Positions 6,956 to 19,261 of a stretch of DNA of 42,364 bases are shown here, piece by piece (position 1 is the first letter of the stretch; the number at the start of each line of letters is the position of its first letter). The stretch comes from Candidatus Margulisiibacteriota bacterium (GTDB taxonomy: Bacteria; Margulisbacteria; Riflemargulisbacteria; GWF2-39-127), in the NCBI GenBank assembly GCA_003242895.1, contig QKMY01000064.1, positions 1 to 42,364 of the forward strand, written 5' to 3'. The notes under the pieces are model-generated. The model saw only the letters and a program-made list of their open reading frames with translations. It was not told the DNA's origin and ran no database searches. The position numbers and the translations under genes are program-made.

Positions 6956-7654
6956 TTAATATATGTATGGGCACTGAGTCGTATCTTTCATCTGGCGACA
7001 GCAGGAAATTGCGTCTGCAACCAGCTGTTGTTGGCTCGTTGGCAATTTTTCCTGGAGGAGCATCAGTTCGTGGATTTGATGTTCATTGAGCCTGGAGATT
7101 TTTTCTTTTATTTGTTTCTGCTTTTCAGGAGCTAATTTGTTGCTCAGCTCCAATCCTTTTTGTGCTTCTGCTAAGACTGCGGCGAGAACTTTTTTGTCAA
7201 TTTGCTGATCATTTTCGAATTTTTTTCGAAGATCTTTAAGGCTTTCTTCTGAGAAGCTAATATTTAGCTCTGCTTTTCCGGAAGGGTCAGTGTTCATGAC
7301 ATAAGCTATTTTCTTTGTCACAAGTTTGATCGGATAGAGCCAGCTTCCCGGTAAGCTGTAAGCAGAAGTCCCGACAACACTGGCACTCATGAACATTGCA
7401 AGGAGGAAGCTTGCGGCTTTCAACATTACAGGTAGTTTCAATCGCAGGCTGAAAGTATTCTTTTTCTTTTGGGCGATCTTATCCACGGCTATGACCGTTT
7501 TTGCAAAAGCAAGCATATTGATCTCAGGCTTAGGAAGTTTTTTTATCGATTTTGCAAGTGCCGACATTTCTTCGAGTTCTTTGCTCCCTGCAGAAAGGTC
7601 ATCCGCGTTGTTATCAAGTAATTGATCGAATTCATCGTCTATTCCGTTTCCCAT
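6956..7654 (-). CDS. DUF5667-domain membrane protein, putative anti-sigma factor
   Basis: 232-aa single-span protein. The N-terminal ~75 residues are acidic and cytoplasmic. A transmembrane segment follows at about 77-100, then the DUF5667 signature SLPGSWLYPIKLVTKKIAY, and a charged helical region that includes SFSEESLKDLRKKFENDQ, which would lie outside the inner membrane. The start codon lies 16 bases inside the end of the sigma-factor gene, so the pair is translationally coupled. A one-span partner encoded directly after an ECF sigma factor normally acts as its anti-sigma factor; here that is inferred from position and topology, since no zinc-binding anti-sigma motif (HxxxCxxC) is present. 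The signal it senses is unknown. Confidence 0.8.
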   Translation of the reverse strand: MGNGIDDEFDQLLDNNADDLSAGSKELEEMSALAKSIKKLPKPEINMLAFAKTVIAVDKIAQKKKNTFSLRLKLPVMLKAASFLLAMFMSASVVGTSAYSLPGSWLYPIKLVTKKIAYVMNTDPSGKAELNISFSEESLKDLRKKFENDQQIDKKVLAAVLAEAQKGLELSNKLAPEKQKQIKEKISRLNEHQIHELMLLQEKLPTSQQQLVADAISCCRQMKDTTQCPYIY

Positions 7655-8169
7655 TTTTCGCCTTTCGATAACATTTTTCGCAAACTCCGGACTGCCCTGA
7701 ATTGAAGCGATTTAATTGCACCCTCGGTTTTGCCAAGGAAGTCTGCAATTTGTTTATTGCTAAAATCATTGATAAATTTATAAATAACTACATCTTGTTG
7801 CTCTTGCGGCAATTTCTGTAGCTGACGCCGGAGATCTTCTCCGCTTACATATTCTGTAAAATCTGTTTCGGTCTCCTGATATTCCTGTGTCATCGCGGTT
7901 CCAAGCTTGCTGTTTTCTCTTTTTCGGTAGTAATCAATGATCAGGTTCCTGGCAATGGTATAAAGCCAGCTTTCTATATTTCCTTGCAGAGTAGTAATGT
8001 TTTTGACCATTTTCATAAATACTTCATGTGTTAGGTCTTCAGTATCTTCACGTGTCGAGACCTTATAAAAAATATAATTATATATTTTTGAGTAGTAATA
8101 TTCACATATTTCTGTCAGTGCTTCGCTATCATAATTTTTGGCACGAGAGATAACCTGTTCGCTAATCAA
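7639..8169 (-). CDS. ECF-type RNA polymerase sigma factor
   Basis: 176-aa sigma-70 family factor with only regions 2 and 4. Region 2 lies at about residues 20-85 (YYYSKIYNYIFYKV, TEDLTHEVFMKMVKNI, then ESWLYTIARNLIIDYYRKR). Region 4 lies at about 115-165 (LPQEQQDVVIYKFINDFS, then the helix-turn-helix SNKQIADFLGKTEGAIKSLQ). The start is TTG at 8169; a nearby upstream ATG is closed by a stop two codons later. A GGGG stretch upstream is the only possible ribosome binding site. It is cotranscribed with the DUF5667 protein, which probably controls it. Its own promoter should lie in 8170-8466, but I could not recognise an ECF -35/-10 pair there. Confidence 0.95.
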   Translation of the reverse strand: MISEQVISRAKNYDSEALTEICEYYYSKIYNYIFYKVSTREDTEDLTHEVFMKMVKNITTLQGNIESWLYTIARNLIIDYYRKRENSKLGTAMTQEYQETETDFTEYVSGEDLRRQLQKLPQEQQDVVIYKFINDFSNKQIADFLGKTEGAIKSLQFRAVRSLRKMLSKGEKWETE

Positions 8170-8466
8170 TATTAATACCCCATATACTTTCTATCTAAGA
8201 CGAATGAGAGTGTTTATAGTTACGATCTGTTTTTATAAGACCATAGTTTGCAGCATTTATTAATAATAGTGATGACTTAAAGCCAGACTATAACTTATAT
8301 AGTTTAATACTTTTCCTGTAAAATTCAATATAGACTCTTCTTGACATATTTCTGTAGATATAATAAATCTACCTTAGAATACAATTGCTTAATACGGAAT
8401 CAGTAAGGAATAATGTGCCATATTCTTGAATTGTAATTATTACGCTTGCAGCAGCAGGGGAATGAT
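8170..8466. promoter_or_regulatory. Divergent promoter region between sigma factor and membrane protein
   Basis: 297 bases separate two divergent genes. On plus, TTGACA at 8341-8346 and TATAAT at 8359-8364 are both perfect matches, but only 12 bases apart, too close to form one sigma-70 promoter, so each may belong to a different start. The region is AT-rich and holds no gene I can support. Confidence 0.4.
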
Positions 8467-10038
8467 ATGAATTTAGGAATAATCCTTCGATTAAATTCTA
8501 GAGAGATATTTAAATATAGCTTGCTTGTGGGGATTCTAGCTACTTTTATCGATGCCGTAATAGCTCATGGTATCTGGAGGGGAACTGATCCTTACTGGAC
8601 TTATTGGGTAACGAATGTGTTCCTTTTTAGTACAGTATTTTCTATCGGAGCTACTTTCTGGGGTGTCGGGCTCCGACAGGGACTTGTTCTAAGTTTTTTC
8701 AGTGCCTGGGCTTTTGCTTTCTATTATGATTATTTTGCACCGTTAGGGCTTCCTCAGGAGTCTTGGTGGCTGGAGTCCCGGGATTTGTGGACTGCCGGAT
8801 TTGTGACTTGTTATCTGGTTGTGTTAGCCGGGTATCTTATCTCCTTATGGATGTGGCTTCGAATAAAAGCAAGAAAAGAGTCTTCCGAACTATCAACTCT
8901 GGCTACCTGTGAACATGTTGAAATCTTAAGATTTACAGTTATTGCCAGCCTTGCGGTCCTCATCGTCGATGGTTTAATTACTCAGGGATTATTATTCAGG
9001 CATTTTCCAGGAGTGACTTTTTATTTCCAGCGTTTTTTATTGTCTTATATAGTCCTCTATTTCTGGACAGTGTATATCGGGTTCGAAAAACAGGGGATAT
9101 TTTCCTCTGCTTTTTTGCTGAGCTTGATATGGACGGGCTACTCTATGTATCTTGGTCCGGTAGATTTGCCATTATCTCCTCCCCGGTACCTTAACTATAT
9201 TCCACTCTGGTTAAAGGTGTTTCCCGGTAGTTTTCTTTCTATTTTCACCGGCATATTTATTTTGTCCCGTTTGATCCCCCAAAAAAAACCTAACTCAGTG
9301 GTTTTGATCTCAGCAGTTTTTGTTTCCATTATAGCCCTAGGCAATCCTCTCTTTGCATCCGAAGGCCTTTTTGCGTCAGCTGCAGCTTCTGGGAGCGGGT
9401 CGAGTTATTTTGGCGCTGATCCTTATAATTTGAAGATAGTCCAGCCTATGATCGGTTCTATCAAACTTCAGGTAAACGATATCGGTAACCGAGAATCGCA
9501 AGTAAAGAATAATGATAAAGTAAATATCGTATCTAATTTTATGGCAGGGAATTCAGCTTATCGAGTGGTTATTACGAGAGCTATGCCGCGTCACCCACTC
9601 GGGACCTATCCTGTCTGGATGGGGGTTGCGTTTAATCCTAAGATACATGGAATGACAGGGATCGGAACAAGCAAATTGCCCGAGATAATCCCTGAGATAG
9701 CTGTGTGGGGGTGGGCTGAAGTCTGGAAAGACGGGAAACTAATTTCCAAAATGGTTCCTGCGCAAGTTACGGTAATAGCCAAAGGGGCTACGAAAGGAAT
9801 TACCTTGGAAGTCGGTGCCGAAGAGAAAGATCTTGTTGGTGATCCTGCCGGTTATATCCATGTGCGCTGGCCAAAGGTATCTTCAGTCAATTTGCCGGTA
9901 ATAGCGATATATAGCCGGGAGATGGGAGGCTGGATTGTTTTGATAGCTATTAATCTGGCTTTTTTATGGCTTATTATAGACTCTCCCTATCGAATTAAAA
10001 AAAAAGGATTCACAAGGAAACAGGTAAAAGCTAGATGA
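8467..10038 (+). CDS. Polytopic membrane protein with internal duplication and extracytoplasmic C-terminal domain
   Basis: Unrecognised 523-aa membrane protein. Two similar multi-span units follow one another (about residues 14-129 and 155-266). Each has an Asp in an early helix (FIDAVIAHG and IVDGLITQG), and each has a YxxYxxPxxLP motif (YYDYFAPLGLP and YSMYLGPVDLP). After a further hydrophobic segment comes a ~190-residue Gly/Ser-rich then beta-rich domain (about 300-485), with PVWMGVAFNPKIHGMTGIG and PEIAVWGWAEVWKDGK, probably outside the inner membrane. A final transmembrane helix and a basic tail follow. The ATG at 8467 is chosen for the AGGGG seven bases upstream; the frame also allows a TTG at 8446. 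It converges on moaA with a 19-base gap. It may be a transporter or an assembly factor; neither is shown. Confidence 0.85.
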   Translation: MNLGIILRLNSREIFKYSLLVGILATFIDAVIAHGIWRGTDPYWTYWVTNVFLFSTVFSIGATFWGVGLRQGLVLSFFSAWAFAFYYDYFAPLGLPQESWWLESRDLWTAGFVTCYLVVLAGYLISLWMWLRIKARKESSELSTLATCEHVEILRFTVIASLAVLIVDGLITQGLLFRHFPGVTFYFQRFLLSYIVLYFWTVYIGFEKQGIFSSAFLLSLIWTGYSMYLGPVDLPLSPPRYLNYIPLWLKVFPGSFLSIFTGIFILSRLIPQKKPNSVVLISAVFVSIIALGNPLFASEGLFASAAASGSGSSYFGADPYNLKIVQPMIGSIKLQVNDIGNRESQVKNNDKVNIVSNFMAGNSAYRVVITRAMPRHPLGTYPVWMGVAFNPKIHGMTGIGTSKLPEIIPEIAVWGWAEVWKDGKLISKMVPAQVTVIAKGATKGITLEVGAEEKDLVGDPAGYIHVRWPKVSSVNLPVIAIYSREMGGWIVLIAINLAFLWLIIDSPYRIKKKGFTRKQVKAR

Positions 10039-15939: not shown

Positions 15940-16392
15940 ATGGGCGAATTCACACATCTTGACGATCAAGGCAAGGTCGCAATGGTAGATGTTTCGAAGA
16001 AACCTAAACAGTCAAGAATTGCTGTCGCATCAGGCAGTATTCGATTAGCCAAAGAAACAATCCTGAAGATAATGGAAAATGAGATCGCGAAAGGGAGTGT
16101 CTTGGTTACTGCCCAGATTGCGGGGATTCAGGCAGCAAAGAAAACCTCTGATCTGATCCCGCTCTGTCATCCGATATTTCTAAGTAACATCAGCGTTAAG
16201 TTCGAAATAAATGAAGAGTCGATAGTTTCGATTGCCCAGGCTAAAGCTGTTGATGTTACGGGAGTAGAGATGGAGGCACTGACTGCCGTGAGTGTCTCTC
16301 TTTTAACTATCTACGACATGTGCAAAGCTGTCGACAAAGCTATGGTAATTGGAGATATCACACTTCTGAAGAAAGAGAAAACCAATGTTTGA
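15940..16392 (+). CDS. moaC: Cyclic pyranopterin monophosphate synthase MoaC
   Basis: Works directly after MoaA, converting 3',8-cyclo-GTP to cyclic pyranopterin monophosphate. The 150 residues show FTHLDDQGKVAMVDVSKK at the N-terminus, KKTSDLIPLCHPI, and the highly conserved block TGVEMEALTAVSVSLLTIYD, then MCKAVDK with the catalytic Lys. GAAAGG precedes the ATG. It overlaps the downstream MOSC/MogA gene by 8 bases. Its partner moaA is 4 kb away on the other strand. Confidence 0.96.
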   Translation: MGEFTHLDDQGKVAMVDVSKKPKQSRIAVASGSIRLAKETILKIMENEIAKGSVLVTAQIAGIQAAKKTSDLIPLCHPIFLSNISVKFEINEESIVSIAQAKAVDVTGVEMEALTAVSVSLLTIYDMCKAVDKAMVIGDITLLKKEKTNV

Positions 16393-17308
16393 GTTTGTTA
16401 TCCGATCTATTAACACGTCTAATGAAAAAGGGACAGCCAAGAATCCTGTTGATAAAGCTATTATCAAAAAAGGCTTAGGGATCGTCGCTGACGCGCATCG
16501 TGGAATGAAAAACCGGGAAATAAGCCTGCTTTCCCGTGAAGAGATAGATGGTTTTAAACCTGATCTTCCTGATGGATCATTTGGCGAGAATTTTACAATA
16601 GAAGGCTTAGATACTTCTAATATAAAGTTGCTGGATAGAATGAAGCTTCGGGATGTTGTCCTGGAAGTATCCAAAATCGGGAAAGAATGTCATGACCGGT
16701 GCCATATCTATCATAGTATGGGCGATTGCATTATGCCTAAAAAAGGGTTTTTTGTTCGGGTCATTCGTGGAGGGGGCATAGTTCGTCCCGGTGCCAAAGC
16801 TCAGTATATCCCTAAAACATTTAAAGTCGCGGTGATAACGCTTAGTGATCGGGCTAGCCAGGGAGTTTATCAGGATAAAAGCGGCGAACTTATCACTTCG
16901 CAACTACAACAATATTTTGCTTCAAGTGATCGTCAGGTATTAATTGATAAAATTGTAATTCCCGATTCATCACTAAAACTTATTAGCCTTTTTTTGAAGT
17001 TTATATTCAAAAGTTACGATATTGTCATGACTACCGGAGGGACCGGCGTTTCACCTAAAGATATTACAATAGGGATTACTCGCTTGTTCGTTAAAAAAGA
17101 GATTCCGGGTATCGCGGAGTTTATCCGTAATAAATATGGGCAGCATAACAGAAATGCTCTTACCAGCCGAAGCCTTGTCGGTGTTAATGGCAAAACACTT
17201 ATTTTTTGCCTGCCTGGAAGCGTTAAAGCCGTGAATGAATACTTGGCTGAAATTATTCCGATGCTAAACCATTTGTTCTCTATGGTACATGATCTGGACA
17301 TGCACTAA
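16385..17308 (+). CDS. MOSC domain - MogA/MoaB fusion protein
   Basis: 307-aa protein with two domains. Residues 1-140 form a MOSC domain, a likely sulfur-carrying or cofactor-binding module; its conserved Cys region reads GKECHDRCHIYHSMGDC and ends in FFVRVIRGGGIVRPG. Residues 146-295 form a MogA/MoaB domain, which adenylylates molybdopterin for MoeA: FKVAVITLSDRAS, MTTGGTGVSPKDIT, and LPGSVKAVNEYLAEIIP. The start codon overlaps the end of moaC. MOSC-MogA fusions occur in other bacteria; joining the adenylyltransferase with MOSC beside moeA suggests cofactor handover, which is an inference. No terminator was recognised after it. Confidence 0.93.
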   Translation: MFEFVIRSINTSNEKGTAKNPVDKAIIKKGLGIVADAHRGMKNREISLLSREEIDGFKPDLPDGSFGENFTIEGLDTSNIKLLDRMKLRDVVLEVSKIGKECHDRCHIYHSMGDCIMPKKGFFVRVIRGGGIVRPGAKAQYIPKTFKVAVITLSDRASQGVYQDKSGELITSQLQQYFASSDRQVLIDKIVIPDSSLKLISLFLKFIFKSYDIVMTTGGTGVSPKDITIGITRLFVKKEIPGIAEFIRNKYGQHNRNALTSRSLVGVNGKTLIFCLPGSVKAVNEYLAEIIPMLNHLFSMVHDLDMH

Positions 17309-17591: not shown

Positions 17592-18086
17592 ATGAATGCT
17601 TATGTGAACCGTAAAATTGTTGCCTGTCCTGAGCCTATATTGCCCGCCGATGTTTTAGCTCTGATTAAAGAGCGAGCTAAATTAGTAGATGAAATTATTG
17701 TTCCCGGCGGACCACTTGATCAATATTTGCTAAAAGAAAATGTTGATCCTAAATCAGCGACTGTCTATTTTTATGGTTCCAGTTGTACTGGAGTTCCTTT
17801 TTTGCAAAAAAAGAGTGGAGTTGCCTATGTAACTGCTCAATCCGATATTGATTTTCTTGTATTTGCAAACAAAGTTAATGGTACTCTGTGGAGGATGCCG
17901 GAAGGTCATAATCGTCCATTTGAGTACAATAGTGTCCCGGTAGAAGTTATAAGTGGATATGTACAAGGCAGTGTTCTTGATGAGTTTTTGTTTAATTTGT
18001 TTGGTCTGAAAATTTACAGTAAAGAAGCGACATTAGCCGTTCCTTTTTCTTCAAAGCTTGTAAGGTCTCCTTCACCGCCAGATTAA
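17592..18086 (+). CDS. Putative nucleotidyltransferase-fold protein, 164 aa
   Basis: The central region VYFYGSSCTGVPF, followed after a gap by QSDIDFLVF, matches the GS...DxD motif of the DNA-polymerase-beta-type nucleotidyltransferase fold (MNT and relatives). The spacing between GSS and DID is longer than in small MNT proteins because of an insert of about ten residues (KKSGVAYVTA). Residues 1-50 are helical and unassigned; the C-terminus ends in a Ser/Pro-rich tail that could reflect a truncation. A GGGGTAA sequence lies near the ATG. It stands alone between a possible small gene remnant and the ApbE homologue. No HEPN or antitoxin partner is visible, so a toxin-antitoxin role is not supported. 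Confidence 0.68.
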   Translation: MNAYVNRKIVACPEPILPADVLALIKERAKLVDEIIVPGGPLDQYLLKENVDPKSATVYFYGSSCTGVPFLQKKSGVAYVTAQSDIDFLVFANKVNGTLWRMPEGHNRPFEYNSVPVEVISGYVQGSVLDEFLFNLFGLKIYSKEATLAVPFSSKLVRSPSPPD

Positions 18087-18247: not shown

Positions 18248-19261
18248 ATGAGCACGAAACATCAAGTAATAATCACAGTTGTCCTATCCCTTGTTTTATG
18301 GCATATCCTTGATGTTTTCCTCTGGGAGAAGAAGCTTGTGCAGTTCGAAACATTTGCTCTTGGCACGACAGTTACTGTAACATATCCGCAACATCATGAA
18401 TCAAAAAATAAGGAAATAGAAAAAGGGATCACCGATATCCTCTATTATGTTTCTCATGATCTTTCTGGCTATGTTCCTGATAGTACTGTCAGTAAGTTAA
18501 ATAGGGAAAGACTGGTTGTCGCAAATGAGTTGTTTGAATATGCAGTGAAAAAAGCAATAATAATATCAGCGTTGTCCGATGGTGCATTTGATATTACGTC
18601 ACAGCCTCTCGTTGATCTTTGGCGTAAAGCTGATGAGATGAACTCCACTCCTGATAGCCAAAGCATTGCTGATATTCAGAAGCAAGTAGATTATAGGCAT
18701 ATAACCGTAACCGGTTCGATTATAGGGTTCGATAAAAAAGGCGTGGAAATAAATCTGGATGATCTGGCAAAGGGGTACGCGGCGGATCTAATTGCTAAGT
18801 TCTTTAAAGGGAAGATGGTATATCCAGCAAAAGTTGCCATGGGAGGAACAGTTCTGGTGATAGGCTCAGAACCAAAAAATATTGGATGGAAGGTTTTGAT
18901 AACAGGCGCGAATAATACTTATCATCCGCTGATTCTCAATATTAAAAATAAAGCTGTTGTTTCTCTCGGTGATTATAGCGGGATTGTTCTTTCACAAAGA
19001 GCCTCCCATTTACCGGACTCAAGTCCGGTTATTGATCCTCGTAACGGATATCCGGTCCAGGATGTTCCTCGTTTTGTTTCTGTCGTTTCAGAGAAAGCGA
19101 TTGTTGCTTCCGGTCTTGCCCGAGCACTATTTGTTTTGGGTCCTGAGCGGGGTATTAACCTCATTGATTCACTCGATGATTCAGCCGCCTTAATAATAGA
19201 TAGCCGAGGGAAAATTAATTATTCAAAGCGCTGGCATTATGGAAAAATCAAGGGCAATTAA
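18248..19261 (+). CDS. ApbE-like protein (FAD:protein FMN transferase family) lacking metal-site residues
   Basis: 337-aa homologue of ApbE, the enzyme that attaches FMN to flavoproteins at the outer face of the inner membrane. An N-terminal hydrophobic anchor (about residues 6-26) has no lipobox Cys. Family landmarks are present: FETFALGTTVTVT, SDGAFDITSQPLVDLW, DDLAKGYAAD, VIDPRNGYP and ALFVLGPERG. However, several conserved residues differ. The usual ADxxxT metal-binding motif reads ASGLAR (Ser288 for Asp, Arg292 for Thr), the HxIDP His is Pro260, the GG before AKGYA is Asp-Asp, and GGN reads GGT. The fold is clear, but catalysis by the known mechanism is doubtful. No FMN-acceptor protein is encoded nearby. 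The upstream ribosome binding site is weak. Confidence 0.85.
   Translation: MSTKHQVIITVVLSLVLWHILDVFLWEKKLVQFETFALGTTVTVTYPQHHESKNKEIEKGITDILYYVSHDLSGYVPDSTVSKLNRERLVVANELFEYAVKKAIIISALSDGAFDITSQPLVDLWRKADEMNSTPDSQSIADIQKQVDYRHITVTGSIIGFDKKGVEINLDDLAKGYAADLIAKFFKGKMVYPAKVAMGGTVLVIGSEPKNIGWKVLITGANNTYHPLILNIKNKAVVSLGDYSGIVLSQRASHLPDSSPVIDPRNGYPVQDVPRFVSVVSEKAIVASGLARALFVLGPERGINLIDSLDDSAALIIDSRGKINYSKRWHYGKIKGN

Follow-up and report, generated by a model that had tools for sequence, protein, structure and literature searches.

The window analysed here, positions 1 to 42,364 of contig QKMY01000064.1 of a Candidatus Margulisiibacteriota bacterium, carries a gene for an ApbE homologue that is very likely, judging from the residues replaced at its active site, to have lost FMN transferase activity. 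ApbE couples flavin to other proteins, a functional enzyme being one that carries out Mg-dependent FMN transfer to a D..[ST]GA[ST] substrate. Annotation as an FMN transferase is routine for its homologues, which also serve as a basis for predicting extracytosolic electron transfer. We think it probable that the window protein is a membrane-anchored, probably periplasmic pseudoenzyme with the ApbE fold, a paralogue of the FAD:protein FMN transferase that does not itself transfer FMN. The features that bear on this reading are as follows.

18248..19261, + strand: ApbE-family gene with a degenerate active site (337 aa, ATG start, PF02424 match)
18266..18325, + strand: N-terminal hydrophobic segment, residues 7-26, read from the translation
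18752..18763, + strand: N169-L170-D171-D172 in place of D-L-G-G/S/A before AKGYA (alignments, PMC8906456)
18962..18967, + strand: S239-L240 in place of the T-S of the TSG motif (FmnB Thr256-Ser257; alignments)
19010..19027, + strand: extra LPDSSP (residues 255-260) before V-I-D-P, with Pro260 at the catalytic His position or His254 displaced
19109..19111, + strand: Ser288 (TCC) where canonical ApbEs have the metal-binding Asp (Asp301 of FmnB, Asp285 of V. cholerae ApbE; ungapped alignment)
19121..19123, + strand: Arg292 (CGA) where 61 of 62 canonical comparators have Thr (FmnB Thr305)

Family membership and active-site replacements

The frame at 18248-19261 (+ strand) is unbroken over its 337 codons. 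ApbE is the single Pfam family matched by the product (PF02424, 181.2 bits against a cut-off of 25.6, E = 3.7e-53), and residues 38-315 cover profile positions 1-265 of 266. The best match in the PDB is V. cholerae ApbE (6nxi), and the closest solved structures are the V. cholerae, P. stutzeri and Listeria ApbE/FmnB proteins, with E values of 1e-22 to 1e-24. The equivalog model PRK10461 (NF007774) gives 88 bits, below its cut-off of 498, a narrow model that carries little weight alone. An AlphaFold model built from a three-sequence alignment had a pLDDT of 31, and the two-domain T-fold of the family is predicted here from the profile match. Residues 7-26 are likely to form an uncleaved membrane anchor; in the translation the lipobox Cys is absent, as is Cys from the entire protein.

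For comparison, we surveyed 80 other ApbE frames, nearly all from the source phylum, and took the 62 that keep the metal-site Asp as canonical comparators. These are almost invariant at the positions concerned, with the Thr, the TSG Ser and the His each present in 61 of 62. The DxxxT block of the window protein (residues 276-300) aligns with canonical ApbEs without gaps, so that the replacement of Asp by Ser288 and of Thr by Arg292 is unambiguous. Turning either codon into one for Asp or Thr would take two or more base changes, and single sequencing errors are thus no explanation for them. Mapped onto Listeria FmnB, the alignment gives Asp301 to Ser288, Thr305 to Arg292, Ser304 to Ala291, Thr256-Ser257 to Ser239-Leu240 (TSG to SLG), Arg262 to Gly245, Asn216 to Thr201, Phe142 to Asp129, Asp184 to Asn169, Gly186-Ala187 to Asp171-Asp172 and, with an ambiguous His alignment, His273 to Pro260. 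Asp115 (FmnB Asp128) and Lys175 (FmnB Lys190) are kept, and Ala291, Thr201, Asn169 and Ala113 fall inside normal family variation. The FmnB ligands have been described, and substituting alanine for a metal ligand, His273, Lys190 or Arg262 abolishes activity or lowers it strongly (PMC8906456); in V. cholerae ApbE, H257G alone impairs the enzyme (PMC12052999).

These alignments with characterised ApbE/Ftp structures support loss of the metal- and pyrophosphate-binding site, and a previous sequence-only reading of this DNA is confirmed in its observation and supported in part in its interpretation. That reading had described an ApbE homologue with the metal-site Asp and Thr replaced by Ser288 and Arg292, and both the homology (181 bits to PF02424) and the two replacements (ungapped block, FmnB mapping) are borne out. 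Its proposal of descent from a flavin transferase is likewise supported, and its claim of a kept fold finds support in the full-length profile match, that is, on a profile basis. The membrane anchor that it held to be kept is present at the level of the sequence, as the hydrophobic segment without a lipobox Cys. Other details fared less evenly. HMMER against the solved structures places Pro260 in the catalytic His column, as had been claimed, whereas MAFFT places His254 there, followed by a six-residue insertion; read from the sequence, the HxIDP geometry is broken under either alignment. The reported replacement of GG by two Asp is informative in part: the first Asp also occurs in 4 of the 62 canonical proteins, and the second, at the column of the FmnB Mg ligand Ala187 (PMC8906456), occurs in none. 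The reported change of GGN to GGT is uninformative, the column being S, E, N, D, Q, A or T in canonical proteins. Three changes had gone unremarked, namely TSG to SLG (Leu240), FmnB Asp184 to Asn169 and FmnB Arg262 to Gly245.

Set beside ApbE/Ftp of known structure (V. cholerae 6nxi, Listeria FmnB 7esa and T. pallidum Ftp 4ifu), the window protein shares the full-length PF02424 match, a likely N-terminal membrane attachment, the GG, AKGY and IDP..GYP segments and the adenine-side Asp and Lys. Unlike them, it has the metal Asp and Thr, the TSG Ser and the catalytic His replaced or displaced, DD before AKGYA, an insertion before IDP and a likely transmembrane anchor rather than a lipobox. No report of a pseudoenzyme or inactive ApbE was found in the part of the literature that our search covered, and a flavinylation survey treats ApbE homologues as enzymes (PMC8238504).

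Constraint on the gene and alternative readings

With these replacements the window protein would no longer be able to assemble the Mg-pyrophosphate site, and would therefore not transfer FMN. Arg292 and Asp171/Asp172 may occupy the space once taken by the metal, perhaps paired in a salt bridge, and with Asp115 and Lys175 the adenine side of the pocket could persist. The protein might then act without catalysis, either as a metal-free binder of a nucleotide or flavin or in association with the canonical ApbE or a flavinylation substrate. In several species ApbE is known to be dimeric or tetrameric (PMC12052999), so that a mixed oligomer with the canonical ApbE can be envisaged. A flavin-binding or regulatory role, as proposed in the previous reading, is conjecture from the sequence, and FAD binding is uncertain because the pocket for the flavin and pyrophosphate is altered over much of its extent. 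The kept Asp115 and Lys175 would also fit residual nucleotide-dependent chemistry, a counterpoint to the pseudoenzyme reading.

We consider it unlikely that catalysis persists in a remodelled site, in which Asp171/Asp172 would be new metal ligands and His254 or another residue the base, for an altered transferase, FAD pyrophosphatase or other phosphotransfer reaction. Such an enzyme would suit the two new acidic residues where FmnB has a Mg ligand (Ala187), the retention of Lys175 and Asp115 and, in MAFFT, of His254 in the His column; the family has two activities, transferase and FAD pyrophosphatase, which differ among its homologues (PMC4767422). However, Arg292 puts a positive charge near the metal site, the change of Ser to Leu and the loss of the FmnB Arg262 equivalent take away further contacts, and the insertion interrupts the active-site loop.

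Early decay, with function lost recently and a frame that is simply still unbroken, seems to us improbable to a similar degree. The gene is known from one genome, on a long branch, without an orthologue and in an orphan position, and carries many replacements at normally invariant sites, all of which would fit this reading. Against this, both metal-site replacements need at least two base changes each, and 0.5 neutral missense changes per site would bring about 10 stops, with a probability of about 3e-5 that the frame stays unbroken. Codon usage is among the most typical of the window's genes, and GC content by codon position is normal (53/35/34 percent). Moreover, of the 22 columns that at least 85 percent of canonical proteins conserve, the window protein keeps 15, many of them non-catalytic, while the catalytic ones are lost. 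We take this as a gene that is not visibly decaying and is under structural but not catalytic constraint. Its terminal branch in the tree measures 1.7 changes per site where the median is 0.58, a sign that constraint has been relaxed or has shifted. That the protein is an ordinary active member, differing at positions that commonly vary in the family, is very unlikely: homologues of E/K type (L101, L107, L110) and G/S type (L072-L074) do occur in the phylum, but they mostly retain the other motifs where the window protein loses all together, and the 62 Asp-keeping comparators hardly vary at the Thr, Ser and His.

Genome context and orthologue search

A canonical ApbE is encoded in the same genome on contig C54 (307 bits), near rnfC, rnfD and rnfG, and would be the genome's real transferase. 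The rnf names were assigned by eye from the sequences, with rnfG backed by an FMN_bind match, and an FMN_bind search of the whole genome found RnfG only. The window gene is flanked on one side by molybdenum-cofactor genes and a small ORF, and on the other by holB and two genes named by eye, one PSP1-like and one HIT-like; no neighbour suggests a flavinylation substrate or partner. These neighbours have no match near the ApbE genes of relatives, and a promoter and terminator scan near the window gene gave results at chance level.

Directly upstream of the gene lies a 164-aa ORF (17592-18086) that has no Pfam match and looks nucleotidyltransferase-like by eye (GSS...SDIDFLVF). The molybdenum-cofactor cluster includes a frame in which MOSC and MoCF_biosynth domains are fused (16385-17308), and beside moaA there is a 530-aa multi-pass membrane protein, again with no Pfam match (8446-10038).

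No orthologue of the window protein was found in its class (7 other genomes), its phylum (74) or a wider set of 383, and in sets of 95 and 383 relative genomes no match exceeded 37 percent identity. A search of about 380 genomes for close homologues with the same replacements returned none, and none of ten further top matches (L130-L139) has Ser and Arg at the DxxxT positions. Among the genome contigs searched for loci related to the window gene, only two Cloacimonadota proteins were recovered, both canonical; viral contigs gave no related locus, and enlarging the alignment there added one partial sequence.

Other ApbE copies with changed active sites in the phylum

Judged by their residues, active-site-less ApbE paralogues recur in the source phylum. 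The changed types in the survey were L090, L079, L072-L074 (G/S), L101/L107/L110 (E/K) and one family-level clade; the wide PF02424 survey of 384 genomes took in high-scoring places only and so gives no frequency of degenerate copies outside the phylum. The clade comprises L102, L104-L106, L108 and L109 together with a copy in L122, from seven genomes. Its members are lipoproteins without TSG and without the His, and have E/E or E/N for the D/T pair. Each gene lies directly downstream of one for a membrane-anchored FMN_bind protein with a TGATIT motif, the only FMN_bind protein found in each of the seven genomes, and is followed by what read as fabZ, lpxA, rseP and uvrC genes. The pair of FMN_bind and degenerate ApbE genes is seen at L119:7250-8733, where the two frames span 8209-8733 and 7250-8206, and likewise in L117, L118 and L120-L123. 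A degenerate and a separate canonical ApbE occur together in 6 of the 8 genomes of the clade's family.

Pairwise dN/dS is 0.07-0.30 in the degenerate clade against 0.13-0.33 for canonical ApbEs of the same family, and the clade is thus under purifying selection as tight as that on the canonical enzyme. Together with the FMN_bind neighbour, these values indicate that an active-site-less ApbE can be selectively maintained in a flavinylation setting. Like the window protein, the clade's members are paralogues without the His, the TSG and the DxxxT pair and, in most cases, share a genome with a canonical ApbE; they differ in being lipoproteins, in having E/E or E/N rather than S/R, in being shorter and in their synteny with an FMN_bind gene. 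In trees the window protein stands apart both from the clade and from L090, although long branches make these placements uncertain. The clade is not orthologous to the window protein, and is a precedent for it rather than a case of homology of function.

A new function for the window protein is plausible, a reading strengthened by the existence of this constrained, non-orthologous clade in a related family. Whether ApbE pseudoenzymes form a recurrent functional class of non-catalytic flavinylation partners (substrate presenters, regulators of canonical ApbE or flavin and nucleotide binders), to which both the window protein and the FMN_bind-linked clade would belong, is a tentative idea that we regard as doubtful. 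Should copies without the active site be kept as partners or regulators, some FMN transferase annotations would be wrong and flavinylation would be subject to a further level of control that has gone unrecognised. Because a degenerate ApbE is paired with its genome's only FMN_bind protein in the clade, this partner or regulator idea lends itself to direct testing in a heterologous system.

In one other case, L090 (G004:C144; L112:1258-2244), a protein from the same class as the window protein has Q/C for D/T, no His, no TSG, no GG and LSG for AKG. It resembles the window protein in its replaced active-site residues, its remodelled loop before IDPRNG and its transmembrane anchor without a lipobox. 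A single origin for the two was considered: the careful tree separates them, placing L090 with the class's canonical ApbEs (98/92), while an AU test on a quick tree leaves a joint clade unrejected (p 0.78). The L090 gene adjoins CheC-like and YfiH-like genes, both named by eye.

Two further groups were observed. ApbE paralogues at L113:6590-7642, L114:6979-7971 and L115:6470-7462 have G and S for the D and T (GGLSSSL) with SSG and the His intact, and share their gene clusters with porin-like proteins and with an FMN_bind protein that carries a TGAT motif. Short ApbE homologues at L127:7353-8219, L128:543-1418 and L129:3498-4310 have E/K for D/T (SEVYAK), each with a gene beside it that is thioredoxin-like by eye.
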